A stretch of DNA of 64,000 nt from Cloacibacillus evryensis DSM 19522 (lineage in GTDB: Bacteria; Synergistota; Synergistia; Synergistales; Synergistaceae). The stretch spans positions 2,099,283 to 2,163,282 of the forward strand of contig NZ_KK073872.1 in NCBI RefSeq assembly GCF_000585335.1. The letters are read 5' to 3'. Below the pieces are notes generated by a model. The model saw only the letters and a list, made by a program, of their open reading frames with translations. It searched no databases and was not told where the DNA came from. Below are positions 1 through 17,229 of the stretch, one piece after another. Each line of letters begins with the position of its first letter. The first letter of the stretch is position 1. A program made the translations under genes and the position numbers.

Positions 1-3000
1 TGACTTGAACAGGCCGGTGCGGCGGCAAACACGGCAAAATTTTAATCCACACGAGCGTGAAGCTCGTGACTGCAGGAGCGGATCGTTATCTCGTGTGTAA
101 CGATAATTTTAATCCACACGAGCGTGAAGCTCGTGACGCGGGCGCGTTGGTGACATCATTATGCGTATTACGATTTTAATCCACACGAGCGTGAAGCTCG
201 TGACGAGACGCGCGGTGTTGTCTCAATCTAAGGAGGCGTTATTTTAATCCACACGAGCGTGAAGCTCGTGACCCTCACGACGGGCGGGAAACGTCGGGCT
301 CGCGCCCATTTTAATCCACACGAGCGTGAAGCTCGTGACTTTCGACGATTATCGGCTATGGCCGTTTTTGATGATTTTAATCCACACGAGCGTGAAGCTC
401 GTGACGCGAGAGCGTCAGGCCGAGACGGGCCGAAAGGTGAATTTTAATCCACACGAGCGTGAAGCTCGTGACTAAGAGTAATATCGCATTAAAAGCAACA
501 CTTGCAATTTTAATCCACACGAGCGTGAAGCTCGTGACGCAAACCTAAGCCCAAAGAGCCGGCAGATGATCGATTTTAATCCACACGAGCGTGAAGCTCG
601 TGACAAGTTTATCGCCACGACCGAAACGGATATCACAGTATTTTAATCCACACGAGCGTGAAGCTCGTGACACAGAGAGCTCCGCCGTCATTGCCTTTGC
701 CAGCTTATTTTAATCCACACGAGCGTGAAGCTCGTGACCAGTCCGCTCAGTTCAACTTTATGCTGCGGCTCATTTTAATCCACACGAGCGTGAAGCTCGT
801 GACCAAATTCGTCCCAGTCCTGGAAGACGACGGAAAATATTTTAATCCACACGAGCGTGAAGCTCGTGACGCGGTGCTGCTGGAGAGGTCAAGCCCACCG
901 TAGCAATTTTAATCCACACGAGCGTGAAGCTCGTGACGCCCTTGAAGAATGTTTTCCGTTCGCTAATATCATTTTAATCCACACGAGCGTGAAGCTCGTG
1001 ACTACGCCGCTACAAATAATGCTACAATGGTTATAGATTTTAATCCACACGAGCGTGAAGCTCGTGACGGTTCTTTTGGCGGCGTGGCCGACTCGCCCGA
1101 TGCATTTTAATCCACACGAGCGTGAAGCTCGTGACGTACCCTTCAAGGCTGTCGTCGTAGGTCGGCCTATTTTAATCCACACGAGCGTGAAGCTCGTGAC
1201 ATCGCGCGCTCTACGTAGCCGTCTGCAAAGACAACATTTTAATCCACACGAGCGTGAAGCTCGTGACTTTTATTTTCTGTGGAGATGAAAACCTTAATCT
1301 ATTTTAATCCACACGAGCGTGAAGCTCGTGACCTCCGCACAACGGCGAACCGCGCGCCGTTAGACGGAATTTTAATCCACACGAGCGTGAAGCTCGTGAC
1401 TCATTCTTTTGCACAAAGAGGCCGGTGGTCACGCAATTTTAATCCACACGAGCGTGAAGCTCGTGACATCTCATTCATCTCACCAGTATTATCATTGTTC
1501 GGATTTTAATCCACACGAGCGTGAAGCTCGTGACCTTTTGAGTCAGACAGTTACAGCGGCAATGATTTATTTTAATCCACACGAGCGTGAAGCTCGTGAC
1601 GCGTTGACCGCTTTCATACGGTTTTCGGCCTGATCATTTTAATCCACACGAGCGTGAAGCTCGTGACGAGGGTGTCGGCTTTTGTTACTGCGCCGGGGTG
1701 ATTTTAATCCACACGAGCGTGAAGCTCGTGACGCCGCGAAGGGCGTTTCGACGCTTACTGCTTCGCCGATTTTAATCCACACGAGCGTGAAGCTCGTGAC
1801 GTGCGCGGCTGGGCGGCGCGGCGGTCTTTCGTTAAATTTTAATCCACACGAGCGTGAAGCTCGTGACCCGATCACCGTAGCAGGTATTCAGAGCATACGC
1901 ATTTTAATCCACACGAGCGTGAAGCTCGTGACGTTTTCGTACTTGCGGAGAGCGTGGGAATTAAGCATATTTTAATCCACACGAGCGTGAAGCTCGTGAC
2001 GGTGATACCAACGGAAAACGGCCAATTTTGCTATTATTTTAATCCACACGAGCGTGAAGCTCGTGACTTAAATAAAATCCCAACAGACTGTGATTGAAGA
2101 ATAATTTTAATCCACACGAGCGTGAAGCTCGTGACCTTTCGCCTCTGTTGGCGCGCCGTTCATCAGCGCATTTTAATCCACACGAGCGTGAAGCTCGTGA
2201 CCGCGCTTACTCAATATAGTGTTACAATGTTTATAAATTTTAATCCACACGAGCGTGAAGCTCGTGACGTAGTACAAAAAAAGGATCGCGTAGAAAGCAA
2301 ATAATTTTAATCCACACGAGCGTGAAGCTCGTGACCGGCAACATCGGCAAAGCGATCAACATCGGCAAAGCGATGATGGCGCTAATATTTTAATCCACAC
2401 GAGCGTGAAGCTCGTGACGGATGGCTAAGTTATTGACAGAGCTAAGCCTCTTCATTTTAATCCACACGAGCGTGAAGCTCGTGACTTTTACGATTTCATT
2501 TTTAAATGAAAAAATCGGACTATTTTAATCCACACGAGCGTGAAGCTCGTGACCTTGCAAGCCGCCCGATGAGGCGGGGCGGCCCTTATTTTAATCCACA
2601 CGAGCGTGAAGCTCGTGACCTGTTCTTGCAATTAATTCAGCTCTATATAGGGCAATTTTAATCCACACGAGCGTGAAGCTCGTGACCGTCGCCGATTAGG
2701 AATCGATGCAGAGTGTCCACATTTTAATCCACACGAGCGTGAAGCTCGTGACCAGGCTCAGAACAACCTTGCCCAGGCCAACAGCATTTTAATCCACACG
2801 AGCGTGAAGCTCGTGACGCGTGCTGAGAACAGATTCGTCCCAGTCCTGGAAATTTTAATCCACACGAGCGTGAAGCTCGTGACTGAAGTCCACGGTCCCA
2901 ACTGAGAACGGCGTGCCTATTTTAATCCACACGAGCGTGAAGCTCGTGACCTAAAAGCGTTCCGTATGGCCTGCCTTAAAAAGATTTTAATCCACACGAG

Positions 3001-6000
3001 CGTGAAGCTCGTGACGAAGCTGTAATACAAGCAATCGCGCCGGAACTAAAATTTTAATCCACACGAGCGTGAAGCTCGTGACCGGTGGATAATACTTCTT
3101 AACCTTAACAGCAATTGATTTTAATCCACACGAGCGTGAAGCTCGTGACGCGTAGAAGAGGCACTCCGTAGGAATCGAAAGCAGATTTTAATCCACACGA
3201 GCGTGAAGCTCGTGACCGGTCCAACGGCGAATAGCACAACCTCGGCGCAAATTTTAATCCACACGAGCGTGAAGCTCGTGACCCGCTCTCTTTATATCTT
3301 GTTTCCATATAGTTGTATTTTAATCCACACGAGCGTGAAGCTCGTGACGGTGAACCAATAGGCAAGCGCCGGTGATTTGTTGATTTTAATCCACACGAGC
3401 GTGAAGCTCGTGACTCTACCACGGTAAAAAAACTCGTTGTCGGGTTTGAATTTTAATCCACACGAGCGTGAAGCTCGTGACTCGCGCTCGACGACGACGA
3501 AACGGAATTTGAATCATTTTAATCCACACGAGCGTGAAGCTCGTGACGCGCAGCCCCTCCGCCTTGAACTTCATCCGGGCCATTTTAATCCACACGAGCG
3601 TGAAGCTCGTGACGCCTGTTCCTGCCAACCTTCGCCGAAATCATCGCGATTTTAATCCACACGAGCGTGAAGCTCGTGACAATGAAGAAATCATGAATAT
3701 CAAAGATTCACGGATTTTAATCCACACGAGCGTGAAGCTCGTGACCTCCTCTGATTGCTCTTATGATTTGCTCTATACAATTTTAATCCACACGAGCGTG
3801 AAGCTCGTGACCTAGTGGAGGCGTTTGGGCCACATGGTTCCGGTAAATTTTAATCCACACGAGCGTGAAGCTCGTGACACGACCTTGTGCCGTGGAAATG
3901 GCTTGGCGGCAATATTTTAATCCACACGAGCGTGAAGCTCGTGACCGCTATAACCCCGGCAACCCCTGCATCGTGGCGCCATTTTAATCCACACGAGCGT
4001 GAAGCTCGTGACTGAAGGCGATCATATTTGCTATGACTACGCTGACGGAATTTTAATCCACACGAGCGTGAAGCTCGTGACGCAGGTCGGCGTCTACGGT
4101 ATCTATCAGACCGGCATTTTAATCCACACGAGCGTGAAGCTCGTGACTTGAAAAAATGTGTCTTTTGAATTGCCGGCAACGTTATTTTAATCCACACGAG
4201 CGTGAAGCTCGTGACCCATTTCGGTGCGTATCTACCGCCGCTTCAAACATTTTAATCCACACGAGCGTGAAGCTCGTGACCATACTTTTTGAGCATCTTC
4301 TGCGCGGTCGTCGCTATTTTAATCCACACGAGCGTGAAGCTCGTGACATGGTCGGTTCCAAATTGGATTAAACAGGCTAGAATTTTAATCCACACGAGCG
4401 TGAAGCTCGTGACCAAAGCTGAAATGCGCAAACTACAGCAAAGATTAATTTTAATCCACACGAGCGTGAAGCTCGTGACTCGCCACACATGGGAAGAAGC
4501 GCAGCGCGATCTCATTTTAATCCACACGAGCGTGAAGCTCGTGACTCCGTGCGCCTCCGTTTGGGATGGCGAATATCCTATTTTAATCCACACGAGCGTG
4601 AAGCTCGTGACCTTCGGATACTGAGCGCACAGGTCTGCATCGCAATTTTAATCCACACGAGCGTGAAGCTCGTGACGTTTTTTTCTGATATGGCGCGCTC
4701 CACCGCGTGAATTTTAATCCACACGAGCGTGAAGCTCGTGACCAGGCATAGGCGAGGGAGGCGGGAAAAACAAAATATTTTAATCCACACGAGCGTGAAG
4801 CTCGTGACGCGGTCGATTCGCCTGTGAGCCGATGATGTGCTGATTTTAATCCACACGAGCGTGAAGCTCGTGACCTCGAGTGCCACAACAAAGAACATTT
4901 TCAAAAAAATTTTAATCCACACGAGCGTGAAGCTCGTGACGCATACCGAGAGAGTCGGCAGAAGTTACTGCCATATTTTAATCCACACGAGCGTGAAGCT
5001 CGTGACGTCTGCATCGCAGACCATGGCGACTAGAACGGAATTTTAATCCACACGAGCGTGAAGCTCGTGACGAGTGCGCCTACGTAAGCCGCCGACTGCA
5101 CGGTTATTTTAATCCACACGAGCGTGAAGCTCGTGACCATGCATGTCCACGTGCTGTTGCCACGTGCTGTTATTTTAATCCACACGAGCGTGAAGCTCGT
5201 GACTCATCTTGCGCCTTCTCGACCTTCGCTGAAAAATAATTTTAATCCACACGAGCGTGAAGCTCGTGACGGGCATTTGCTGAGCAAACTTATTGCCGGG
5301 CATTATTTTAATCCACACGAGCGTGAAGCTCGTGACTGATAGATTTTTTTAGCGTTCCATCATCAACTGATTTTAATCCACACGAGCGTGAAGCTCGTGA
5401 CTTAATCACCTCTTTAATTATAATGCGGTCCTTTATATTTTAATCCACACGAGCGTGAAGCTCGTGACGAGGCAAATATTAACCTAATCGCCGCCGCACC
5501 TATTTTAATCCACACGAGCGTGAAGCTCGTGACGATCTCCACCGTTTGAAATCTCTTTGATGTGGTGATTTTAATCCACACGAGCGTGAAGCTCGTGACC
5601 TTTTTCCGAGCGTGTCTTAAAAATCGAAGACAATTTTAATCCACACGAGCGTGAAGCTCGTGACTGTGCGCTTGTACCCGCCCTCCACGGAGCGGAAATT
5701 TTAATCCACACGAGCGTGAAGCTCGTGACGACAAAGGTATTCGAGGTTAGCCCAGTTCAACGTATTTTAATCCACACGAGCGTGAAGCTCGTGACGCTGC
5801 GCGATCTACGCAAAGAACACCGTTATTTGATTTTAATCCACACGAGCGTGAAGCTCGTGACCTTCGCCGGCGAGATATATCACGCCGCCGGGACGATTTT
5901 AATCCACACGAGCGTGAAGCTCGTGACGTCGCCCATTTGCTCAGCCATCGCTCCGTAAGCCTATTTTAATCCACACGAGCGTGAAGCTCGTGACCAATGT

Positions 6001-8710
6001 GCCTGTAAAGGTCATTAGCATCTGCTTCAATTTTAATCCACACGAGCGTGAAGCTCGTGACGCGGCAATAATCGCCTCTGCACGGACAATACTTGATTTT
6101 AATCCACACGAGCGTGAAGCTCGTGACGTCAAAGATTCCATGAATCGGGTGGTGTGGGAAATTTTAATCCACACGAGCGTGAAGCTCGTGACTCTGCATC
6201 GCAGACCATGGCGATTAGAACGGATATTTTAATCCACACGAGCGTGAAGCTCGTGACTATGTGTGCAAATCATTGTGCCATCCGCCCATTTATTTTAATC
6301 CACACGAGCGTGAAGCTCGTGACGTCATATACGTCTTCCATGTACTCAGAACAGGTATTTTAATCCACACGAGCGTGAAGCTCGTGACTTAAGGCTTATA
6401 TCGATAAAACAAATGAAAGATTATTTTAATCCACACGAGCGTGAAGCTCGTGACTCATGCGCATGTGCGGGCTATCTATAGCACAAGTATTTTAATCCAC
6501 ACGAGCGTGAAGCTCGTGACCCTGCGGCGTGCTAGTTTCCGCGTCAAGTGCCGTATTTTAATCCACACGAGCGTGAAGCTCGTGACCCTCTTTTCCTCAT
6601 TTCTTCCTCGATCCTGTGATTATTTTAATCCACACGAGCGTGAAGCTCGTGACGCGCACGCCGTTGAGCTTATAGTATTGCGCAAGCATTTTAATCCACA
6701 CGAGCGTGAAGCTCGTGACGGGTCGTTATTCCTCCGATAATCGGTGATGCAAACATTTTAATCCACACGAGCGTGAAGCTCGTGACGGAAGGTGGCGAGG
6801 AAGTCGGCCAGGGTGTCGCGATTTTAATCCACACGAGCGTGAAGCTCGTGACCCTATTTGCGCAAACGCTTTGCGCAGGATGTTCAATTTTAATCCACAC
6901 GAGCGTGAAGCTCGTGACCCGCCGCCCATGCGGCAAACGCGGGAATAACAAATTTTAATCCACACGAGCGTGAAGCTCGTGACCTTTGCCACTCCATCAG
7001 TTGAAAGCAGATTGTCAGATTTTAATCCACACGAGCGTGAAGCTCGTGACCAAGCCAAGAGGGCCCAGAGCCATGAGATAAAGCATTTTAATCCACACGA
7101 GCGTGAAGCTCGTGACCTGTGCCATGCTCAGCGGCACGTCGTCAAACATTGATTTTAATCCACACGAGCGTGAAGCTCGTGACTTATCTGCGATTTTCCC
7201 GCCCCGGTACCTTCAAATTTTAATCCACACGAGCGTGAAGCTCGTGACAGGGCTATTCCAACGTCGGCAGTTGGTATGGCTCGATTTTAATCCACACGAG
7301 CGTGAAGCTCGTGACGTTTACAGCTTTCAAGCCCCGCTCGAAGTAGGGATTTTAATCCACACGAGCGTGAAGCTCGTGACCTCTCGAAAGGGGGAGAAAA
7401 AGCAATGGACGATAAATTTTAATCCACACGAGCGTGAAGCTCGTGACTGACATGCCGGGTCTTAGATATCTTGCCGCCAATAATTTTAATCCACACGAGC
7501 GTGAAGCTCGTGACTTGCCACAACAGAGAGCATTTTGCACAAAAGCTATTTTAATCCACACGAGCGTGAAGCTCGTGACCAAATAAAATGCAGATAAAAG
7601 TTACCGCCGACGTATTTTAATCCACACGAGCGTGAAGCTCGTGACTTGTCGGCGGAGAAGAAGACAGCAAAAGATCCACATTTTAATCCACACGAGCGTG
7701 AAGCTCGTGACACATAGATCCCGCGAACAGCTATGAACGCGTGACCATTTTAATCCACACGAGCGTGAAGCTCGTGACGTCCGCCATCTGGTCAGACATC
7801 GCTCCATATGCCTATTTTAATCCACACGAGCGTGAAGCTCGTGACGTAGTATCTCGCCTCGGCGTGCGCAGCGACGGGCAATTTTAATCCACACGAGCGT
7901 GAAGCTCGTGACCAGAATAGCCCTGTGTTCCCCATACATTGCTTCCATTTTAATCCACACGAGCGTGAAGCTCGTGACTTTGTTTCCCGCCACACAACGC
8001 ACGCCGAGCAAGATTTTAATCCACACGAGCGTGAAGCTCGTGACCTGAGGTTTATGGTGCGCGCAAGCTGCGCTTTCTATTTTAATCCACACGAGCGTGA
8101 AGCTCGTGACGGCCCCGGGGTCCGTGCCGCCATGGCCGGCGTCGAATTTTAATCCACACGAGCGTGAAGCTCGTGACCGGCAGAGCTGAACAGCGCTCCG
8201 TTTGATGAAAGCATTTTAATCCACACGAGCGTGAAGCTCGTGACGCGTCACCAAGGTTCTCAGAACCACGGATCGCTATTTTAATCCACACGAGCGTGAA
8301 GCTCGTGACTCGAGCGAGCGGTATATTTCTATATGGTCGAGGTCATTTTAATCCACACGAGCGTGAAGCTCGTGACACGACATGGGTTTTGATGCAGTAG
8401 GCTTTGAACTATTTTAATCCACACGAGCGTGAAGCTCGTGACCGGACTGACCGCTACGCCGTACCGTTTGGGTCATGATTTTAATCCACACGAGCGTGAA
8501 GCTCGTGACCTCAAAGGGTGCTATAGAAGCGGCTGATAAGGCATTTTAATCCACACGAGCGTGAAGCTCGTGACGAAAGGGGAAAGGACATGACATCAAA
8601 GGAAAAAGAATTTTAATCCACACGAGCGTGAAGCTCGTGACCTGTTTTATGGGTGCTGGCGATGCTCTGTGTGAAGCTATTTTAATCCACACGAGCGTGA
8701 AGCTCGTGAC
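1..8710 (-). CRISPR. Very large type I-C-like CRISPR array, 131 complete repeats, continues beyond the window
   Basis: A 32-bp repeat recurs about every 66-67 bp from 39 to 8710; I count 131 complete copies with no base change noticed. Bases 1-4 (TGAC) are the tail of one more repeat, so the array continues upstream of the window. On the plus strand each repeat begins ATTTTAATCC and ends GCTCGTGAC. Its core is a perfect 7-bp stem (CACGAGC / GCTCGTG) around a 5-nt loop. Read on the minus strand it ends GTGGATTAAAAT, like the GTGGATTGAAAC-type ends of I-C repeats, so transcription should run on the minus strand, the same direction as the cas genes. Spacers are mostly 33-36 nt. The leader-proximal, most recent end should be at 8710. 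Short reading frames inside the array are repeat translations, not genes. Confidence 0.98.
2336..2386 (-). repeat. Oversized 51-nt CRISPR spacer with internal 18-bp tandem duplication
   Basis: Between the repeats ending at 2335 and starting at 2387 the spacer is 51 nt instead of the usual 33-36. It contains an 18-bp unit, AACATCGGCAAAGCGAT plus one base, at 2340-2357 and again at 2358-2375, differing only in the last base. Removing one unit would leave a normal 33-nt spacer. Either the duplication arose after acquisition, or the source DNA already had the repeat; it is in frame and would encode NIGKAI-NIGKAM. Confidence 0.9.
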
Positions 8711-8877: not shown

Positions 8878-8878
8878 C
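8836..8878 (-). other. Inverted repeat overlapping the cas2 stop codon
   Basis: Perfect 9-bp arms GCGCGGACC (8836-8844) and GGTCCGCGC (8870-8878) face each other across 25 nt, and the distal arm overlaps the last base of the cas2 stop. No T-run follows on the minus strand, so it is not a clear intrinsic terminator. It could stabilise the 3' end of the cas mRNA or separate cas transcription from the array. Confidence 0.55.
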
Positions 8879-9168
8879 TACAGAATCAAGATACCTTCCG
8901 GGTCAAAAGTATCCTTTGCGCCCACATGTTCAACTCTGCTTTTCCAATGATTTCCCAACTGGTAGTATCGCAGACTGTCACTTTTTGTGTCTATTATCTT
9001 CTCTAGTTCATGGCAGAGCTCCAATCTCTGGGCCTGATCGACCAAACATTCAAAAACTGAATTCTGCACCCTTTGTCCGTAGTTTTCGCATATTTTAGCA
9101 ACTTTGCGCAGCCGTTTCCTGCCTTCTGGCGTCGTTGTATTTACATCATAAGTTATCAAAAGAAGCAT
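8878..9168 (-). CDS. cas2: CRISPR adaptation protein Cas2
   Basis: A 96-residue protein with the Cas2 ferredoxin-like start LLLITYDVNTTTPEGRKRL, including the conserved Asp of the first strand, and the following QNSVFEC segment typical of I-C Cas2. With Cas1 it forms the integrase that inserts new spacers at the leader end. It is the last gene of the cas operon, 19 bp after cas1, and directly abuts the leader of the array it serves. Length and motifs are normal. Confidence 0.96.
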   Translation of the reverse strand: MLLLITYDVNTTTPEGRKRLRKVAKICENYGQRVQNSVFECLVDQAQRLELCHELEKIIDTKSDSLRYYQLGNHWKSRVEHVGAKDTFDPEGILIL

Positions 9169-9187
9169 GGCAATACCTCGTTATGAA

Positions 9188-10219
9188 TTATTTCCAATAA
9201 AATGGCGGATAGCCGTCAATATCTCCCCTGAGGTAGCTGGACATAAGCATCGCTTGGACATGCGGCAAAAGTCCCAGAGGAATTTTTTCGCTGATGAATG
9301 GATGTATTATTTCATCCCGTTTTCTTTCCTGATAGTTTTTTATGATCTCTTTCCTGGTCTTATCGTCCATTATCACTCCCCCGGTTTCAGTTTTTAGGAA
9401 TCCCTCTTTTCTCACCTGTTTTCTGTTTATCAAGGTCAGTACAAGCCTATCCGAGATCATCGAACGAAATTCTTCTATTAAATCGAGAGCAAGGCTTGGA
9501 CGCCCCGGCCTGTCCGCATGCAGGAAGCCAACGGCGGGGTCAAGTCCAACTCCTTCAAGTGCCGAAGCCACATCATGCGCAAGCAGAGTATATACGAAAG
9601 AAAGCATCGCGTTCACGTTATCCATAGGCGGCCTGCGGTTTCTGCCGTGAAAGAAAAAATTGTCTTTCTGAGCTACGATCAGCTCGTCAAAAACAGAAAA
9701 ATAGACTCTAGCCGCATCGCCCTCGATCCCGCGCACGGTGTCCAAGGGTTTGAAAGATTCCAGGCTTCTCAATGCGATGGAGAGATAACTTGCCGCCTCT
9801 TTCAGCCTGCCTGCGCCATCTTTTCCAGGATATTCGCGAGCCGCCCTTATTAAAATTTTTCTGCCGTTTGCGATTTTTGCGATCACCATCCAGCGAGCAA
9901 GTTCCGCGCGGGAATTGGCATCATCCGCCGTACGATATTGTTTGCGCCGCAGCAGAACATTGCCGGATATTGGCCCATTTACGCGCGCAAGAAACCTGCC
10001 GTTCTCTGTAAAAAAAGACATCCCGACGCCATACTCCCCGCACATTCCCATCAATGCCGGCGTGCACAGAACATTGCCAAAGCATAAAATATTGGACTGG
10101 TTGTGGATGGGGAAACGCTGTTTCAGCTCCTTATCCACATAAACGGCGATCGTTTCCCCCTCTTTAGCAAGGTACGCTCCCTGAGTCAGGATATACAGGC
10201 TGTTTTGCAGTTTTTTCAT
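9188..10219 (-). CDS. cas1: CRISPR integrase Cas1 (type I-C branch)
   Basis: A 343-residue Cas1 beginning MKKLQNSLYILTQGAYL, the form found in I-C systems. The three metal ligands expected for spacer integration are visible: Glu166 in GIEGDAAR, His234 in GFLHADRPG and Asp246 in SLALDLIEE. The start overlaps the cas4 stop by 4 bp (ATGA), so the two are probably translationally coupled. With Cas2 and Cas4 it would select, trim and integrate prespacers. The intact active site fits a still-growing array. Confidence 0.97.
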   Translation of the reverse strand: MKKLQNSLYILTQGAYLAKEGETIAVYVDKELKQRFPIHNQSNILCFGNVLCTPALMGMCGEYGVGMSFFTENGRFLARVNGPISGNVLLRRKQYRTADDANSRAELARWMVIAKIANGRKILIRAAREYPGKDGAGRLKEAASYLSIALRSLESFKPLDTVRGIEGDAARVYFSVFDELIVAQKDNFFFHGRNRRPPMDNVNAMLSFVYTLLAHDVASALEGVGLDPAVGFLHADRPGRPSLALDLIEEFRSMISDRLVLTLINRKQVRKEGFLKTETGGVIMDDKTRKEIIKNYQERKRDEIIHPFISEKIPLGLLPHVQAMLMSSYLRGDIDGYPPFYWK

Positions 10220-10890
10220 GGCAGCTCCTCACCTTCGTCATCGCTAAAAAAACCCGCCAGATATCTTTTGACGCTCTTTTTCTCTATCTCTTTCGGCATA
10301 CATATATCGAATAAAGAGCAGCCTTTGCATTTCTTTTCAAATTTGGGTACGGGGGTCCTCCCAGCATTGATAAATTTTCTGACCGTTGAAATAGTTTCCA
10401 CCGTTTTGGTTCTGAGAACAAAATCAAATTCCACATCCTGACGCCTGCGGCTCTCTCCCCAGAAAATGGCGCCGCATTCAATCGTGGTGTGCAGCATCTC
10501 CTCTAAACATAGAGCCTGAGCGCACAGTTGTATATGATATGGCAGCGCCTCATGCGTCGTTCCGCGTTTGTATTCGACCGGGAAAGGAGTCCAATTTCCT
10601 TCCGCTCCCGGAAGAGCGATGCCGCCCTCCTCTGTCCGATGAAACTCGAGCACATCAGTGATCCCGGTGAGTCCCAGTTCAAACGAATGTATATGCAAAG
10701 CGTTTCTCACTCTGATGTCGCCTCTGCTTTCAAATATGCCTGCGTGGGCCCTCTCGTGCATTATTTTGCCGTCCATCGTAGCGGCGTTTTCGTCCCAATG
10801 TTGTTCTATGCCGATAAGCGCCGCCCGGCGCGGACAAAAGACATAGTGCTGGAGCAGTGAAATCGGCAGCAGTTCATCTTCAGTGTACAA
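10216..10890 (-). CDS. cas4: Cas4 RecB-like nuclease for spacer processing
   Basis: A 224-residue Cas4 with an N-terminal Cys (YVFCPRRAAL) and a C-terminal CKGCSLFDIC cluster that together would bind an Fe-S centre. The RecB-type nuclease residues are seen in GITDVLEF, FPVEYKRGT and the QLCAQALCLEEM helix. In I-C systems Cas4 helps choose the PAM and trims prespacers with Cas1-Cas2. The start is TTG at 10890, supported by GAGGTG eight bases upstream; no ATG fits better. It begins 16 bp after cas3. Confidence 0.95.
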   Translation of the reverse strand: MYTEDELLPISLLQHYVFCPRRAALIGIEQHWDENAATMDGKIMHERAHAGIFESRGDIRVRNALHIHSFELGLTGITDVLEFHRTEEGGIALPGAEGNWTPFPVEYKRGTTHEALPYHIQLCAQALCLEEMLHTTIECGAIFWGESRRRQDVEFDFVLRTKTVETISTVRKFINAGRTPVPKFEKKCKGCSLFDICMPKEIEKKSVKRYLAGFFSDDEGEELP

Positions 10891-10906: not shown

Positions 10907-13201
10907 CTACAGGAAGCCATAGCCACAGTTGTTGAGCTCCTCATTATCCAATACTCCGGCCATGTATCCGATAAAGCCATCGTACTTATAGGGCCAGAAA
11001 TATATATCGGGATGACCGCGGACAGGCTCTGCTTTAAATTTTTTCGCGGTGTGGACATATATTTGTACGCTGTTGTCCTGAAGCTCGCGCCACGTAACCT
11101 TATCATGGGATTCTAAGCGTTCTTTTATGTGAGTGTCTACTATAACCGTAACCGTTTGAGAATCGACCACCTTGAATTTTTTCTCCACCGATGCGTAGGC
11201 ACAGGCCGCTTCATCTTCTGTGATGCTGGAATCTTCCCTCATTCCGCACTCGTTGAGTTCGCGCCGCAGCGCTCTCGTGCATAGGTCAGAAATATTCGTT
11301 CCTTCGTTTATCAAATCAGGGTTTTCTGCGAATAGATCGAGCAGGACCTTTGAGGCAATCTCAAACGAGGGGTGTCTTTTAAGCAACCCGCTAAAATCAA
11401 GTTCGATACTCCACACGACAGAGTCATTGTAACAATCTTCTTCGTTGCGCCTGATCCTCCCCGCAAGTTGGAGCAGATTCACAAGTCCTGCCGCCTCCCG
11501 CACGCCGTTGCGGAACGAGAAGTCCACGCCGGCTTCCACGCAGGATGTGGCTATCAGTGTCCAGTTATCATCTTCTTTATCACAAAGACGTTCTTTTATT
11601 TTTTTCACAAGCAGCTCCCGGTCCTTCGGAGCGATAGCCGTTGAGATATGCTCAACGCGTTCTCTTCCGCATCTATCCGCCAAAGTCCTGGCAACGACCG
11701 CGGCGGACTGCACCGTATTCAAGACTACGAGACGCGGCCCTTTCAGCGTAAGCAGCCACTCGCAGAGCCTGACTTCGTCCATTTTTTCTGATTTGCGCTT
11801 TATCGGTACGCGCCGTGTCTCCAGCGCATTGAGCCACTCGCTGAATTCCTTCGGCAGCAATGACGGGATATTATTATCTGTGCCCTTTATTTTAAATTCA
11901 TCAAGCTCCCAGAATTTTTTAAGCGAGCCGGACGCGAGTATGAAATGGCAGCGCCACTCCATCGCGTACTTATTGATCCACCACCAGGCAAGCGGCCATA
12001 GGTTTGTTGGAAGCGCGGTGTGCGCCTCGTCGATAAAAATGGCGCTGTTTGGCAGCGCGTGAAGTTTGCGCAGTCCCGCGGGAGACGCCGCCGCCATCGT
12101 CTCAAAGAACTGAACTGCTGTGGTAACGATTACCGGAGCGCGCCAAAGTGCGGAAAGCTGCCTGCTGTTTTCGTTTTCATATTCGGCCTTATGGTAGATG
12201 GCTGCGACGACGCGCTCCATATCACTGTCGCTTTCGCCGGGAAGGCGCAGGGCATTCCTGTAGACGTCCACAGATTGTTTGAGAATATTAGTAAAAGGAA
12301 GGACGATGAATATCCGGCGCAGCTCCTTGGCCTGCGCCGCGTTCAGCATTGCCGCCATTACTGCCGTAGTCTTGCCGGTGCCGACGGGGCTGTCGCAATA
12401 ATACATCCAATCCTTTGTGGGACCGCAGCGGCATTTTTGGTACATTCCGCTCCTGGCGATGTTGCGCTTTGAGAGCTTTACTGATTTATCGCCGCTGGCA
12501 AGGCCGGCGACATAACGGTCAAGCGCGGCGAGTCTTTTTTCTGCTTGCAGCAGCGGTATCTTTTCTTCATGAAAGTTGCGGTAGTGGATGGCAGTATCCG
12601 TATGGTCCGCGTCGGCAAGGCACGAGAGCAATAGCCTTGTCGCAACGCGCAAATCAAACCGTCCGTCGGTGCGGATATTCTCTATCTCGGCAAGCTCCGA
12701 TCCGAAAGATTCACAGTGCCTGGCAAGATATTCCTCCAGATTCTCGCTGTTCTGCCGGACGGCCTCATCATTGTCGCGAAAGCGCAGGTCGCCGCTGGGC
12801 GAATTTTTCCTTATTTTTTCACCGGCCATGTCGGGCAGGCCGATATGATGAGAATAAATCAGCAAAGCGCTCAAAAGAGCCTTGTGGCGCATCATATAGG
12901 CAACGCCAGCGTCACAATGATTGATCGGCAGATGCCTGGCTTTTTTATCCCCGCGCAGCACACTTTGATTTTTGTCGTTCAGCTTGCCAAGGTCATGGAA
13001 CAAAGCGGCGTGAAGAAGGCAGTACTTAAAAAAATCGTATCCACGCTGATAGCCGTCGCCGACAACGATAGAAGAAAGCTCGTTTTTACAGAAGCGCGCC
13101 ACATTGCCGGCATGTTCGAAATAGCCCTGAGCGGGAATGTCCAGCTCAGGGCGCGCGCTGTGGGCGAGATATTTTTCTACTGGGCCATCAGGTCCGCACA
13201 T
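10907..13201 (-). CDS. cas3: Cas3 nuclease-helicase, HD domain fused to SF2 helicase
   Basis: A 764-residue protein. The HD nuclease part shows His30, the HDLGK signature (His69-Asp70), a His-rich HLPINHCDAG segment (90-99) and SHHIG (117-121). The helicase part has Walker A SPVGTGKTT (271-279), DEAH (391-394), VEAGVDF and QLAGRIRR. Motif III, normally SAT, reads ASGS (423-426), which is unusual. It would be recruited by DNA-bound Cascade to unwind and cut the target. Its position between cas7 and cas4 differs from the usual I-C order, where cas3 comes first. The start overlaps the cas7 end by 25 bp. The C terminus carries GYMAGV, also present at the end of Cas8. Confidence 0.95.
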   Translation of the reverse strand: MCGPDGPVEKYLAHSARPELDIPAQGYFEHAGNVARFCKNELSSIVVGDGYQRGYDFFKYCLLHAALFHDLGKLNDKNQSVLRGDKKARHLPINHCDAGVAYMMRHKALLSALLIYSHHIGLPDMAGEKIRKNSPSGDLRFRDNDEAVRQNSENLEEYLARHCESFGSELAEIENIRTDGRFDLRVATRLLLSCLADADHTDTAIHYRNFHEEKIPLLQAEKRLAALDRYVAGLASGDKSVKLSKRNIARSGMYQKCRCGPTKDWMYYCDSPVGTGKTTAVMAAMLNAAQAKELRRIFIVLPFTNILKQSVDVYRNALRLPGESDSDMERVVAAIYHKAEYENENSRQLSALWRAPVIVTTAVQFFETMAAASPAGLRKLHALPNSAIFIDEAHTALPTNLWPLAWWWINKYAMEWRCHFILASGSLKKFWELDEFKIKGTDNNIPSLLPKEFSEWLNALETRRVPIKRKSEKMDEVRLCEWLLTLKGPRLVVLNTVQSAAVVARTLADRCGRERVEHISTAIAPKDRELLVKKIKERLCDKEDDNWTLIATSCVEAGVDFSFRNGVREAAGLVNLLQLAGRIRRNEEDCYNDSVVWSIELDFSGLLKRHPSFEIASKVLLDLFAENPDLINEGTNISDLCTRALRRELNECGMREDSSITEDEAACAYASVEKKFKVVDSQTVTVIVDTHIKERLESHDKVTWRELQDNSVQIYVHTAKKFKAEPVRGHPDIYFWPYKYDGFIGYMAGVLDNEELNNCGYGFL

Positions 13202-14025
13202 GAGACCCTGTCCTTGAGTTCGTCAGGCAATGATTCAGCAAGCTGATAATCCTTAAGGCTGTCCGAAGATTTGTTGATGTCCCCCAGGCGCTTAGGCGTC
13301 AGAGCGTCGATCAGGTCAAAGTCGGAGCAGGAGCCAAGCGGGTTTTTATGTTCGCAGAACCACGCCTGACGGATCTCAACGAACGGGCGTATCGCCGAAC
13401 GGTTATGCGTATAGGCGTAGGGGATAAGGGCTTTCATCAGTTCGATATCCATCTTCGTGCAGCCCGATTTATGTGCGTAATTCGGATTGATGAAAAATGG
13501 CATCACATAAAGGCCATGTGTAACGATCTTGTAGGCCATCGGCGCCATTCCCTGATTTTTCCCCTCCTGTACGCCGGCTTTGTTCGTATTTGTCTGAGCC
13601 TCGGTGTATACGGGGGAAATGGACACGCCCATACCAAACTGAACGACGCCGGTCTTTATACTGGCCTTGTCCATGGCGTCTTCAAGGAAGGTGTTGCCGA
13701 AAATCCTTCCGTCCCAATAACGGCCGATGAATGAGCCGTCTTTTATCTCTTTGGTTATCTGCTTACGATCACGTCCGCGTGATTCAAGTATCATGAAGCT
13801 TTCGCCGTTAAGATGCAGCTTCTCGCTGAGATGCTGCCAGACCGGCCCGTCTTTGTCTTCTACCAGATCGCGCAGCTTCCTCTTAAAAGATACCGGCGAA
13901 ATTTCTCCGCGTCCGTCATATCTGACACGAGGAGCCCCATCCGAGTCAGGATCGCCGTTTGGATTTGAATTGATCACTTCAAGAACGAGCAGCCCGGTAC
14001 CTCTATTAAGAAAATCGTTAGCCAT
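13177..14025 (-). CDS. cas7: Cascade backbone protein Cas7 (Csd2/Csh2 family)
   Basis: A 282-residue Cas7. The N terminus GLLVLEVINSNPNGDPD and the RYWDGRIFGNTF segment are characteristic of the Csd2/Csh2 group, whose copies polymerise along the crRNA spacer. I place the start at ATG 14025 because GGGAGG lies eight bases upstream; an in-frame ATG six codons earlier lacks such a site. It overlaps the cas8 end by 8 bp and the cas3 start by 25 bp, implying coupled translation of the effector subunits. Confidence 0.95.
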   Translation of the reverse strand: MANDFLNRGTGLLVLEVINSNPNGDPDSDGAPRVRYDGRGEISPVSFKRKLRDLVEDKDGPVWQHLSEKLHLNGESFMILESRGRDRKQITKEIKDGSFIGRYWDGRIFGNTFLEDAMDKASIKTGVVQFGMGVSISPVYTEAQTNTNKAGVQEGKNQGMAPMAYKIVTHGLYVMPFFINPNYAHKSGCTKMDIELMKALIPYAYTHNRSAIRPFVEIRQAWFCEHKNPLGSCSDFDLIDALTPKRLGDINKSSDSLKDYQLAESLPDELKDRVSCADLMAQ

Positions 14026-14449
14026 TTTGCTTTCCTCCCTCATTATTTTCGTTTTCTCCTGTGGCCTTGCCGGAAACGCCGGCCATGTATCCCAGATAAA
14101 GTTCAGATTTTTCTATCGGACCCAGAGTCTCCGGCAGCGGCGATTCGTTTAGCTCGGATGAAATCACGGAAAGCTGCTTCAGCATCCACCTGCTGAGCCC
14201 CATGTCTTCTCCCATATCTGTCTTGGCCCATGTGAAATAAGGCTTGATTCTTGCCCCCAGGATTCCAACCGTCTGTCGGGTTCTGGTTTCGGCGGCGGAG
14301 AGCATTGAATTTCCCACAAGCTGAACCGGCGCGTTTACAATGTTCTTTTTTCTGTCCTCTTCCGAAGTTCGTACATACTTGCAGTAGTGATACTGCAGAC
14401 TGTCCGCGAGAGCAAGAAGCGTTCCTAGTTTGAAAACTGGACTGTTCAT
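14018..14449 (-). CDS. cas11c: Probable small Cascade subunit Cas11c from an internal start in cas8c
   Basis: Inside cas8, in the same frame, an ATG at 14449 is preceded by AAGGAGG with ideal spacing, the strongest ribosome-binding site noticed in the operon and one with no other use. Initiation there would give a 143-residue protein, MNSPVFKLGTLLALADSL onward, identical to the Cas8 C terminus. I-C systems are known to make their small subunit Cas11c this way (established for Desulfovibrio). Internal translation is inferred from the site, not proven. Confidence 0.8.
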   Translation of the reverse strand: MNSPVFKLGTLLALADSLQYHYCKYVRTSEEDRKKNIVNAPVQLVGNSMLSAAETRTRQTVGILGARIKPYFTWAKTDMGEDMGLSRWMLKQLSVISSELNESPLPETLGPIEKSELYLGYMAGVSGKATGENENNEGGKQNG

Positions 14450-16222
14450 ATAATCCTCCTTTTTACAGCCAAGCTTGTACAAAAGCAGGGCAAGTATGGC
14501 TGGATTTACAATTCTGTCTTCCTCTTTATCTCCTATGACCTGCTTCCCCCTGCGGCTGCATTCTCCGCAGAGCGCAAGCAGCGGAGCGGTATTGGAAATA
14601 AAGATCGCAAGAAGATTCATGGCGAAAGCGCGGTCATTTTTCAAGAGCAGCTCCAGACCGTCCATGGATTTTATCTTTTTGGAGGGACTGCTTCCGCCGC
14701 CATCCATCCGCCAGATTTTATTTGCGAAAGTATAGAGCTCTTTGGGAAAAATGGTGCGCCTTTCTATTTCGATGATTTCCCCCTTAGTGTCGCCCCAGCG
14801 CTTGACCCGCCTGAGATTATCAGGCAGATTTCGACAACCTTCGCTCCATTCCTGGGCACATTGATAAAGGTGATCAGCCGTAAAATTCGTATAATACGAT
14901 ACCTTCGTGCGTGCTTTGTCCATCTTCTTTAATGCGAAAATCTTTATTTCGATCGTTGAAAGCCGCCTCGATATTCCGGAAAGCGCCGCGATGACCTGAC
15001 CCGCAAGGGCCGCGAAGTCCGCCTTGTCCTTCGCTGTCGGCCCGTCTGTAAAAAGTCCGGCTGCGGGGATATCGCCGAGGTCAAATATCTCTTCCATATC
15101 ATCATCGTCGTCATTTCCAATATCACTGGTCAGCATGACCGGATATGCGAAGAGCAATTCTTTTTCTCCCATGACGTTCCACGTTTTGCCTTTGAACTGA
15201 TCCTGCGCAAGCGTCTCCAGCGCCAGCTTGGCGCTTCGGCGGCTGATGTCGCCAACGGGGAAAGATTCATAATCCGCGACGCCGTAGCGAAACTGACATG
15301 GGGCTTCCTTAACCATTGAACGGAGGATCACGTCGCCGAGAGGGCCGACGCGAACGCCTGGCATCTTGGCGTTGCAGCCGCTGAGCGGGTTGCCATAGGC
15401 ATCCTCACCGTCAGCCTCATCGTCTCTGTTTTGCGTTTCGTTGAGTCGAAGCAGCGCGCTATTGATCCATTTTACCGTCTGCCCATGCGCCACAGATTTG
15501 TAATTGTCGTCATAATCTCTGATGTCAAGGAACAACGTCGCGCCGGCAGCCGACTGTACGATGAAGCCGCAATAGCGCTCCCAGGCCTCATGCGAATCAA
15601 TGAGCGAAGAAAAATATGCAAAACAGCCGTTAAAAAATTGCTCCGGTGATATTTTCTCCAGCCGCTCACAGAGAGCCAAGTAATTTGGATTGCCGTTGTC
15701 AAGCGCGGCCGCTTTTATTTTTTCTCCTAAATTGGCAGCAGTGCTCTTGATGCACTTCTCGATCTTATTAAGAGCCTTCGCGCGATAGGCGGCAGCCTCC
15801 GTGGTATCCTCTTGGAACGCGCTTCGCAGATAATCGGTAAATTTGTCCCGATCAAAACTCTTTTTCAAGGAACTGCTGACGAATCTGCCTCGTTTTTTGT
15901 CATCAAGTCCCTTCGCCGCTTCAGCCGCCGCCTGATCATAGGCCGCCAAGTAGCCCTGTTCAAAATCTATTTTCGATATATGCAGACAAGACGGAAAGTT
16001 GAAACCCGGGAATGAGAAGCCGTTGGATTCCTCGTACTTGCGCAGCTCCGCCGCGTGCTCCGCCGGTATCAGGCTGACGCCGTCAACAAACGGTTCTGCC
16101 GCCGAAACGCACACCTTAAAGACATCTCCTTTAGGGAGCGGTTTTAGATTCTTATCCCATTCCTGCGCGAATATTTTTTGCAGAGAGGAGGCATTTGCCG
16201 CTGGAATAACTTCATTCAGCAT
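14018..16222 (-). CDS. cas8c: Divergent Cas8c (Csd1-like) large Cascade subunit
   Basis: A 734-residue protein in the Cas8 position between cas5 and cas7. Overall similarity to Csd1 is weak. A GNPLSGCNAKMPGVRVG segment, a following FRYGVADYESFPVGDIS segment, and a C-terminal FKLGTLLALADSL plus ELYLGYMAG pattern correspond in order to conserved Csd1 regions. It is longer than the roughly 570-650 residues I associate with Cas8c. It should recognise the PAM and start R-loop formation. Its ATG overlaps the cas5 stop by 11 bp after GAAGGAGG. The last 143 residues probably also make Cas11c. Confidence 0.85.
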   Translation of the reverse strand: MLNEVIPAANASSLQKIFAQEWDKNLKPLPKGDVFKVCVSAAEPFVDGVSLIPAEHAAELRKYEESNGFSFPGFNFPSCLHISKIDFEQGYLAAYDQAAAEAAKGLDDKKRGRFVSSSLKKSFDRDKFTDYLRSAFQEDTTEAAAYRAKALNKIEKCIKSTAANLGEKIKAAALDNGNPNYLALCERLEKISPEQFFNGCFAYFSSLIDSHEAWERYCGFIVQSAAGATLFLDIRDYDDNYKSVAHGQTVKWINSALLRLNETQNRDDEADGEDAYGNPLSGCNAKMPGVRVGPLGDVILRSMVKEAPCQFRYGVADYESFPVGDISRRSAKLALETLAQDQFKGKTWNVMGEKELLFAYPVMLTSDIGNDDDDDMEEIFDLGDIPAAGLFTDGPTAKDKADFAALAGQVIAALSGISRRLSTIEIKIFALKKMDKARTKVSYYTNFTADHLYQCAQEWSEGCRNLPDNLRRVKRWGDTKGEIIEIERRTIFPKELYTFANKIWRMDGGGSSPSKKIKSMDGLELLLKNDRAFAMNLLAIFISNTAPLLALCGECSRRGKQVIGDKEEDRIVNPAILALLLYKLGCKKEDYMNSPVFKLGTLLALADSLQYHYCKYVRTSEEDRKKNIVNAPVQLVGNSMLSAAETRTRQTVGILGARIKPYFTWAKTDMGEDMGLSRWMLKQLSVISSELNESPLPETLGPIEKSELYLGYMAGVSGKATGENENNEGGKQNG

Positions 16223-16886
16223 TACAGATCGCCTCCTTCTGGGGGTAGAACATTACCCCTTCGCGTACTTCTACATTTTGCGCAAAGGCAAATCGCGGTT
16301 TTGAATCATAGCCGTCAGGGAAAACACTCATCAGCAAACTGGGAATTACAAAGTTGATTTCTTTACACGGAGATGTAATCTCGCGCAGCGGTCCAAAATA
16401 GGAGGGGGTGAATTCTTTCCAGCCCAGGCATGGCGTGTGAAAAAACTGGCCGCGTTTGAGACGGCGCTCGAAAATCGCCTTATACGCATGCCCCGGAGAG
16501 GTCGTATTCGTATCCCAGCGGCGCGCACCCTCCGTCATCCTTTCCCGGTTCTGCCGCAGCGGCAAAATTGACGCGTGGAGCTTGTAACAGACGTCGACCA
16601 GGATCGAGGCCAGAAGCTGATAGTTATTATCCCCGCTGATGCTGCTCGAATGCCGCAGCGGGCCGCCGTAATTAGTGATGTAATTTTCAAATCTAATCGG
16701 TGAACATATTTCCACTTTCTGCGGTATAATTGTCACAGCAGGGCCCCAATTTACAGCAGAAAAAATGCCGCAAACAGCCGAAGCCGTAGGTACGGGATAA
16801 GACCCGGGGCTATCGCCCGTAGAGGGATCGGAAAAAAGAGCATGGCGGCCCGCGATCTCACAAGAAACCGTATATTGTTTTAGCAT
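16212..16886 (-). CDS. cas5c: Cas5 (Cas5d/Cas5c type), probable crRNA-processing endonuclease
   Basis: A 224-residue protein with the Cas5 signature SYPVPTASAVCGIFSAV near the N terminus, where Cas5 proteins have their first RAMP strand and glycine loop. In I-C systems, which lack Cas6, Cas5 cuts the precursor at each repeat and caps the 5' handle of the crRNA. No separate cas6 is seen here. I chose ATG 16886 because GGGAGG precedes it; a frame extension back to a GTG at 17012 would start upstream of the predicted transcript. It is the first gene of the operon, about 100 nt after the predicted start of transcription. Confidence 0.93.
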   Translation of the reverse strand: MLKQYTVSCEIAGRHALFSDPSTGDSPGSYPVPTASAVCGIFSAVNWGPAVTIIPQKVEICSPIRFENYITNYGGPLRHSSSISGDNNYQLLASILVDVCYKLHASILPLRQNRERMTEGARRWDTNTTSPGHAYKAIFERRLKRGQFFHTPCLGWKEFTPSYFGPLREITSPCKEINFVIPSLLMSVFPDGYDSKPRFAFAQNVEVREGVMFYPQKEAICNAE

Positions 16887-16993
16887 TATGTTCCTCCCTT
16901 CTTTTGTTTGAAATCTTTCGCAGAGTAAAAAGAAAGCGGAAGAGCCAGGTAAAATGTTAGTGAGTGAACAATCGCTTTCTTCTCTACGAAAAC

Positions 16994-17022
16994 AGTATAT
17001 ATTACAAAACACATAATGTCAA
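16994..17022 (-). promoter_or_regulatory. Near-consensus sigma-70 promoter of the cas operon
   Basis: On the minus strand TTGACA (17022-17017) is followed after exactly 17 bp by TATACT (16999-16994), so transcription should start near 16987, about 100 nt before the cas5 ATG. All six -35 bases and five of six -10 bases match consensus. So strong a promoter in front of Cascade genes suggests it is normally held down, which fits the adjacent pseudo-crRNA target sites. Confidence 0.85.
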
Positions 17023-17061
17023 CTAATACTATTTATAAATTCCAAATAAAAATCATAGGAC
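17023..17061 (-). promoter_or_regulatory. Promoter-proximal candidate target site of the pseudo-crRNA
   Basis: Reading on the minus strand from 17058, the site begins CTATGATTTTTATTTGG. It agrees with 20 of the first 23 spacer positions of the solitary repeat unit at 17163-17229; the mismatches are at 6, 14 and 21. Position 6 is one of the bases that Cascade flips out of the duplex, so it should not matter. The three bases in front (17061-17059) read GTC, one change from the usual I-C PAM TTC. A 36-nt protospacer would end at 17023, touching the -35 element. The function is inferred. Confidence 0.6.
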
Positions 17062-17098
17062 CATATATATAATTATATCCAAATACAAATCATAGGAC
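17060..17098 (-). promoter_or_regulatory. Second, upstream candidate target site of the pseudo-crRNA
   Basis: A second copy starts at 17095 on the minus strand as CTATGATTTGTATTTGG, exactly 37 bp upstream of the first. It matches the pseudo-spacer at 15 of 18 leading positions, with mismatches at 6, 10 and 14, and has the same GTC in front. A 36-nt protospacer here would end at 17060, so two bound complexes would sit side by side. The two sites could instead be a tandem operator for a protein regulator. Confidence 0.5.
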
Positions 17099-17119
17099 TG
17101 TTTATTTTATGTATACGTT

Positions 17120-17153
17120 ATGGGCCCTGAGAAGTCTCCCTCCCAAGGCCCAT
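17120..17153 (-). other. Long hairpin downstream of the pseudo-spacer
   Basis: On the minus strand ATGGGCC (17153-17147) pairs with GGCCCAT (17126-17120). The interior continues pairing, with G-U pairs in RNA, to a GAGA tetraloop, about 15 bp in all. It lies 9 nt beyond the 36-nt pseudo-spacer. No T-run follows, so it is not a standard terminator. It could protect or end the small RNA. Confidence 0.6.
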
Positions 17154-17162
17154 TCCAGTGAC

Positions 17163-17229
17163 GATACTATCTCACTATATTCCATATAAAAAACATAGAT
17201 TTCAATCCACGCGAACCTGGATTCGCGAC
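17163..17229 (-). ncRNA. Solitary I-C repeat plus 36-nt pseudo-spacer: candidate Cas-regulating RNA (CreR-like)
   Basis: At 17199-17229 a single 31-bp CRISPR-like repeat lies upstream of the cas operon in the crRNA orientation (minus strand). It starts GTCGCGAA and ends GTGGATTGAAAT, nearer to canonical I-C repeats than the array repeat is. Its stem, CGCGAA / TTCGCG, differs from the array stem on both arms but still pairs perfectly. The following 36 nt (17198-17163) begin CTATGTTTTTTATATGG and resemble the two sites at 17058 and 17095 in front of the cas promoter; the 3' third does not match. Partial seed-side pairing is what known crRNA-like regulators use to repress without cutting. I see no good promoter for it, so it may come from read-through of sua5. 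Confidence 0.65.

Follow-up and report, generated by a model that had tools for sequence, protein, structure and literature searches.

The type I-C CRISPR-Cas locus of Cloacibacillus evryensis DSM 19522 raises the question of what role a solitary CRISPR repeat plays upstream of the cas genes. The locus is on the minus strand of the window, the whole 64,000-nt stretch of DNA that was analysed (G000:C1:2099283-2163282, strand +). On that strand the gene order is cas5c (16212-16886, with its ATG at 16886), cas8c (14018-16222), cas7c (13177-14043), cas3 (10907-13201), cas4, cas1c and cas2 (together 8878-10890), and then the array, which has 131 exact copies of the repeat GTCACGAGCTTCACGCTCGTGTGGATTAAAAT inside the window (1-8710). 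The type I-C gene set is complete (Cas5c, Cas8c, Cas7c, Cas3, Cas4, Cas1c and Cas2), and cas6 is absent among the seven operon genes; in type I-C systems Cas5c is the crRNA-processing nuclease. Cas8c was recognised by the PADLOC model PDLC01562 alone (E 2.9e-186) and by none of the Pfam or NCBIfam models.

Upstream of cas5c, in minus-strand order, are the solitary repeat, a guide, a strong hairpin, two sites resembling the guide and a sigma-70 promoter. The solitary repeat, GTCGCGAATCCAGGTTCGCGTGGATTGAAAT (17199-17229), is of the I-C type and consists of a hairpin and the 11-nt handle TGGATTGAAAT. Its stem departs from the array repeat in sequence while the pairing is kept, and it folds as a repeat hairpin. 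The guide that follows, the pseudo-spacer of a putative creR RNA, reads CTATGTTTTTTATATGG (17182-17198). No clear promoter for the creR RNA was found by a promoter scan at the locus; its 3' end could possibly be the hairpin at 17120-17153, which has a fold z-score of -6.7 and no T-run. Site 2, CTATGATTTGTATTTGG, occupies 17095-17079 behind GTC at 17098-17096 (17079-17098 in all), and site 1, CTATGATTTTTATTTGG, occupies 17058-17042 behind GTC at 17061-17059 (17042-17061 in all) and adjoins the -35 box of the promoter. The promoter itself, TTGACA-N17-TATACT (16994-17022), agrees with the sigma-70 consensus at 11 of 12 positions and is conserved in the congener G001. The cas5c leader (16890-16990, minus strand) could form a long-range hairpin, AGAAAGCG...CGCTTTCT followed by T's, which is roughly retained in the congener and has a z-score of only -1, no better than shuffles.

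The cas operon is very probably autorepressed by Cascade loaded with the creR RNA, a reading supported at the sequence level by the guide-target match, the PAM, conservation, and co-variation across genera and phyla. The creR RNA would be transcribed, cut through the repeat hairpin (by Cas5c in type I-C) and loaded into Cascade, which would then be guided to the pair of GTC-flanked sites immediately before the cas promoter. Pairing would extend over about 16 nt (positions 1-5, 7-11 and 13-16, with 6 and 12 unpaired) and then fade, which should be enough for Cascade to bind and block RNA polymerase and too little to trigger cleavage by Cas3. Taken as a 34-nt protospacer, site 1 ends about 2 nt upstream of the -35 box, and Cascade bound there should therefore obstruct RNA polymerase. 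Repression would be relieved by crRNAs competing for Cascade or by anti-CRISPRs, and by analogy with CreR in other subtypes (PMC13131331, PMC12737573) the element may thus sense the supply of crRNAs.

Several natural guide RNAs provide precedents for such an arrangement. CreR, first described by Liu et al. (2023, Cell Host Microbe 31:1481) according to the reviews PMC13131331, PMC12737573 and PMC12948488, designates crRNA-like RNAs that repress cas promoters in types I-B, I-E and V-A, and this repression responds to crRNA supply and to anti-CRISPRs (PMC13131331, PMC12737573, PMC12948488). The C. evryensis element would likewise specify a crRNA-like RNA adjoining the cas genes, with limited complementarity to the cas promoter and with Cascade as the expected repressor, but it differs in belonging to type I-C, in having two tandem target sites and GTC as the PAM, and in sharing its guide with a prophage in the same genome. 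It has the mini-CRISPR form typical of CreR, one or two repeats in a crRNA-like unit beside the cas genes (17229-17199), and it has the limited seed complementarity to the cas promoter behind the system's own PAM (13 and 12 of 14 positions, GTC), so that by these sequence features it appears to resemble CreR in mechanism. No published case of a type I-C CreR was found in the literature searched; an earlier prediction for type I-C in the 2023 CreR study is possible. The element also resembles CreA of the CreTA modules in its degenerate repeat and guide, its pairing at positions 1-5 and 7-11 with 6 and 12 free, and its PAM-flanked promoter target (PMC8501985, PMC9458426), but unlike CreA its target is the cas promoter and no toxin gene was recognised. 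Mutational studies of CreA with type I-B Cascade showed that nucleotides 1-5 and 7-11 are needed and 6 and 12 are dispensable, with a PAM beside the target (PMC8501985). As outlined in PMC8616872, tracr-L of type II-A Cas9 is a natural short-match guide that similarly directs an effector to the promoter of its own operon, yet it works with another effector and is an extended tracrRNA rather than a repeat with a guide.

The initial annotation had drawn attention to the match between the guide and the two sites, and when its letters and coordinates for the repeat, the guide and both sites were re-read base by base, all were correct. Site 1 agrees with the guide at 20 of 23 positions (mismatches at 6, 14 and 21) and site 2 at 15 of 18 (mismatches at 6, 10 and 14), just as had been counted; both alignments contain the reported mismatch at position 6, and GTC stands in the PAM place of each site, as had also been noted. 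The guide is preceded by AAT from the repeat, again in agreement with that annotation, and is therefore not itself a target. For scoring, the 14 positions that a Cascade guide should pair within the first 16 (1-5, 7-11 and 13-16) were used, which gave 13/14 for site 1 and 12/14 for site 2. Among 20,000 dinucleotide-preserving shuffles of the 288-nt stretch between the guide and cas5, none contained two sites scoring at least 12/14, with or without GTC; one site scoring 13/14 arose in 10 of the 20,000 when no PAM was demanded and in none when GTC was. The guide is AT-rich, which makes chance matches likelier, and both the shuffles and the cross-locus controls described below allow for this bias. 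The whole genome (3.49 Mb) was scanned for GTY followed by the guide, with some positions left as N and a tolerance of one mismatch; only the two promoter sites were returned.

The PAM usually given for type I-C is TTC. The PAM of this system was derived by comparing the array by BLAST with the genomes of relatives, among which the congener G001 contained several protospacers. Flanks at 20 protospacer places were GTC in six cases and GTT in three, with the remainder scattered, and the four best protospacer matches in G001 were flanked by GTC (three) and GTT (one). GTC is thus the most frequent PAM among the protospacers of this array, and GTC rather than TTC appears to be the PAM of the system. 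No match for a phage-derived PAM was found when 8 kb of the array was compared by blastn with 50,697 phage records, and four single-spacer scans of IMG/VR gave no protospacer match. Across loci, the creR targets stand behind GTC in C. evryensis, in the spirochaete locus L020 and in G021, a genome from another genus, and behind TTC or TTT in Bacillota loci; the PAM may follow the branch of Cas8c.

Conservation in related genomes follows the parts that a working guide would use. In G001, where cas8c is 86% identical and the intergenic region 78% identical, the handle (11/11), the guide (28/28 nt), both PAMs (3/3 each) and the seeds (14/14 and 13/14) are kept, and the hairpin is kept at 16 of 20 positions. 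The changes in the first 16 positions of site 2 are limited to 6 and 12, which are unpaired, and 10, which was already mismatched. G021 (L010), whose cas8c is 50% identical, has a solitary repeat with a wholly different guide, ATATAATGTTGAAG. The sequence after its repeat reads ATATAATGTTGAAGATGTATT, and the cas5 promoter region contains GTC followed by ATATAATGTTGAAGTTTATT, identical over the first 14 positions and just upstream of the promoter TTGACG-N17-TATATT. The initial annotation had proposed a search of related loci for co-variation of guide and target, and this expectation was borne out: guide and target have been replaced together in G021 with GTC kept, and 16 of 17 loci fit. The guide-target register is thus kept through evolution, as in CreR, in G001, in G021 and in the 17-locus comparison. 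Upstream of the matching site in G021 is also GTC followed by CTACAACATTAAAGAT, in which several of the mismatched positions could form G-U/G-T wobbles against the guide; it is possibly a second, degenerate target.

An alignment of Cas5c over GTDB species genomes gave 41 more loci; a scan of genome contigs with the Cas8c protein confirmed no relative. A solitary repeat was found upstream of cas5 in seven of the 41, recorded as Brucepastera (a spirochaete; L020), Lachnospiraceae (L024), Candidatus Adiutrix (L032), Yanshouia (L038), Candidatus Pseudolachnospira (L041), Merdimmobilis (L058) and Candidatus Termititenax (L060). A second set of about 50 further cas5 loci, from the order of Yanshouia, was examined after the hypothesis had been fixed. 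In eight of them the full GTGGATTGAAA motif marks a solitary repeat, in each case divergent from cas5, and every one of the eight guides has a matching site in the promoter region, at 13-14 of 14 positions and behind TTC or TTT. The pooled statistics cover 17 type I-C loci with a solitary repeat, from several phyla and with the congener G001 left out. Locus L106 was excluded, as its motif reads GGGATTGAAAT rather than GTGGATT, and no target was found for it. A promoter-region site scoring 11-14 of 14 occurs in 16 of the 17 loci, against a mean of 8.2 and a maximum of 12 in the cross-locus control with the same PAM demand. Matches occur with a frequency of 0.94-1.00 at positions 1-5 and 7-11, 0.75-0.94 at 13-16, 0.50 at 17 and 0.12-0.38 from 18 onward, and of 0.19 at positions 6 and 12 (16 sites of the 17-locus set). 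Sites were chosen without regard to positions 6 and 12 or to any position past 16, which makes the dips there informative, and those at 6 and 12 are the pattern expected if every sixth guide base is flipped out in Cascade.

The fit is not uniform across the loci. At the Candidatus Termititenax locus the repeat is present and no target was found in the promoter region; the Candidatus Adiutrix locus fits only in an ambiguous register, and Merdimmobilis hominis gives a weak fit of 11/14. The cas5c match of the last locus is split by a stop or frame change, and its solitary repeat and weaker promoter match remain. L031 and L044 have terminal array repeats immediately before cas5; these were considered as CreR and rejected, there being no guide-target match. 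Repeats were detected with one handle motif, and absence of a repeat at other loci is therefore uninformative; many I-C loci are without a solitary repeat by this motif, so the arrangement is not universal.

Other explanations of the two sites can be weighed against these data. It is very unlikely that the element is a module of the CreTA type, in which the RNA would repress a small toxin RNA in the 5' leader of cas5 and not the cas genes. CreTA modules do sit upstream of cas operons and follow the same pairing rule (PMC8501985), and there is a hairpin within the leader (16990-16890); against this, the sole good promoter downstream of the sites runs straight into cas5c, and the leader measures about 100 nt, with a hairpin that scores no better than shuffled sequences, though it could conceivably encode a tiny RNA like CreT. 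The likelihood is slighter still that an ordinary DNA-binding repressor uses the two sites as operators, with the pseudo-spacer as a third copy. The resemblance of sites 1 and 2 to one another and to the guide would suit such a repressor, as would the fact that tandem operators are common upstream of promoters, but the match always starts precisely where the repeat ends, with a PAM before the site, the dips at 6 and 12 appear in loci with unrelated guides on either strand, and a protein operator would not be expected to change together with the pseudo-spacer in another genus, as occurs in G021.

It is hardly credible that the element is a dead relic, the leftover final repeat of a former array with a spacer taken up from the promoter. 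The solitary repeat does differ from the array repeat and self-matching spacers do occur, but the stem still pairs, and handle, guide and seeds are conserved above background in G001. Moreover, loci in several phyla have the same arrangement and show the pairing expected of a functional guide, and a copy in a prophage of the same genome retains only the hairpin form, the handle and the guide.

The prophage copy, a second occurrence of handle and guide in the C. evryensis genome, is on the minus strand at G000:C1:2266323-2266278 (L166 11324-11279), outside the window, and reads GCCATGGGCCTGCCCATGTGGATTGAAAT followed by CTATGTTTTTTATATGG. The 11-nt handle and 17 of 17 guide letters are identical to those of the host element, whereas the hairpin is unrelated in sequence (CATGGG..CCCATG versus CGCGAA..TTCGCG in the host) and still folds. 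The surrounding genes encode an integrase, a HicB-like protein, a holin, an endolysin, a major head protein, a portal, a terminase and a tape measure protein, and the prophage is entered in IMG/VR as a 39,638-bp viral sequence. The element begins 12 nt past the stop codon of an orphan gene of 161 aa (L166 11337-11819, minus strand), upstream of which are a strong terminator and a sigma-70 promoter with 12 of 12 consensus positions; a GC-rich hairpin lies 3' of the element. No relative of the orphan was found in NCBIfam, Pfam, PHROGs, phages, plasmids or other Synergistota genomes, and no significant match in PDB; by position only, the gene is an anti-CRISPR candidate. Targets of the guide behind GTC or GTT are absent from the 53 kb covering the prophage, and genome-wide its sole PAM-flanked targets are the two cas promoter sites. 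A search of other viral contigs for the prophage element returned only the same prophage, and the CreR guides of three other hosts, used as patterns, were not found in viral contigs.

The new feature here, a prophage that carries the host handle and guide under a different hairpin, looks, from its letters and position, like a guide-bearing RNA anti-CRISPR that would exploit CreR. Known RNA anti-CRISPRs include RacrIC1 and RacrIF1, of which RacrIC1 lies 11 nt 3' of acrIC5 (PMC10651486). The prophage element shares with these the form of a solitary repeat-like unit carried by a virus, and it too follows a small phage gene, at a distance of 12 nt. RacrIF1 is a repeat mimic that leads to aberrant Cas complexes (PMC10651486), whereas the prophage element also bears the host CreR guide and could repress transcription of the cas genes. 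A review of viral CRISPR components describes repeat mimics and mini-arrays directed against other viruses, and a guide-bearing copy of CreR is absent from it (PMC11656645). On this one example, read most simply, the phage may supply CreR to lower expression of the cas operon, as a guide-bearing Racr. The combined proposition, that CreR autorepression is recurrent in type I-C and that a temperate phage copied the host CreR guide onto its own repeat-like hairpin, in a unit headed by a consensus promoter, to yield an RNA anti-CRISPR acting through cas autorepression and not only through jamming of Cascade, is judged somewhat probable.

On the host side, these loci would extend crRNA-like autorepression to type I-C, with examples from several phyla and a set of guide-target pairs open to listing and testing. 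They also form a natural data set on how long a pairing Cascade requires for binding and repression without cleavage, about 16 nt in this case. Should the prophage copy be functional, the regulatory switch of CRISPR would itself be a point of phage attack, and some of the solitary repeat units of phages could regulate cas expression rather than serve as simple decoys. Reviews of CreR point out that anti-CRISPRs can backfire through de-repression of cas genes (PMC13131331, PMC12737573, PMC12948488); a phage that supplied CreR itself would directly answer this. Array spacers 19 and 71 match the prophage at 100% (G000:C1:2282831-2282866 and 2289561-2289597). The flanks at these matches are CTT and ATC, and GTT flanks the spacer-19 match in G001, so that a PAM change may also protect the prophage and self-targeting may be tolerated in this way.
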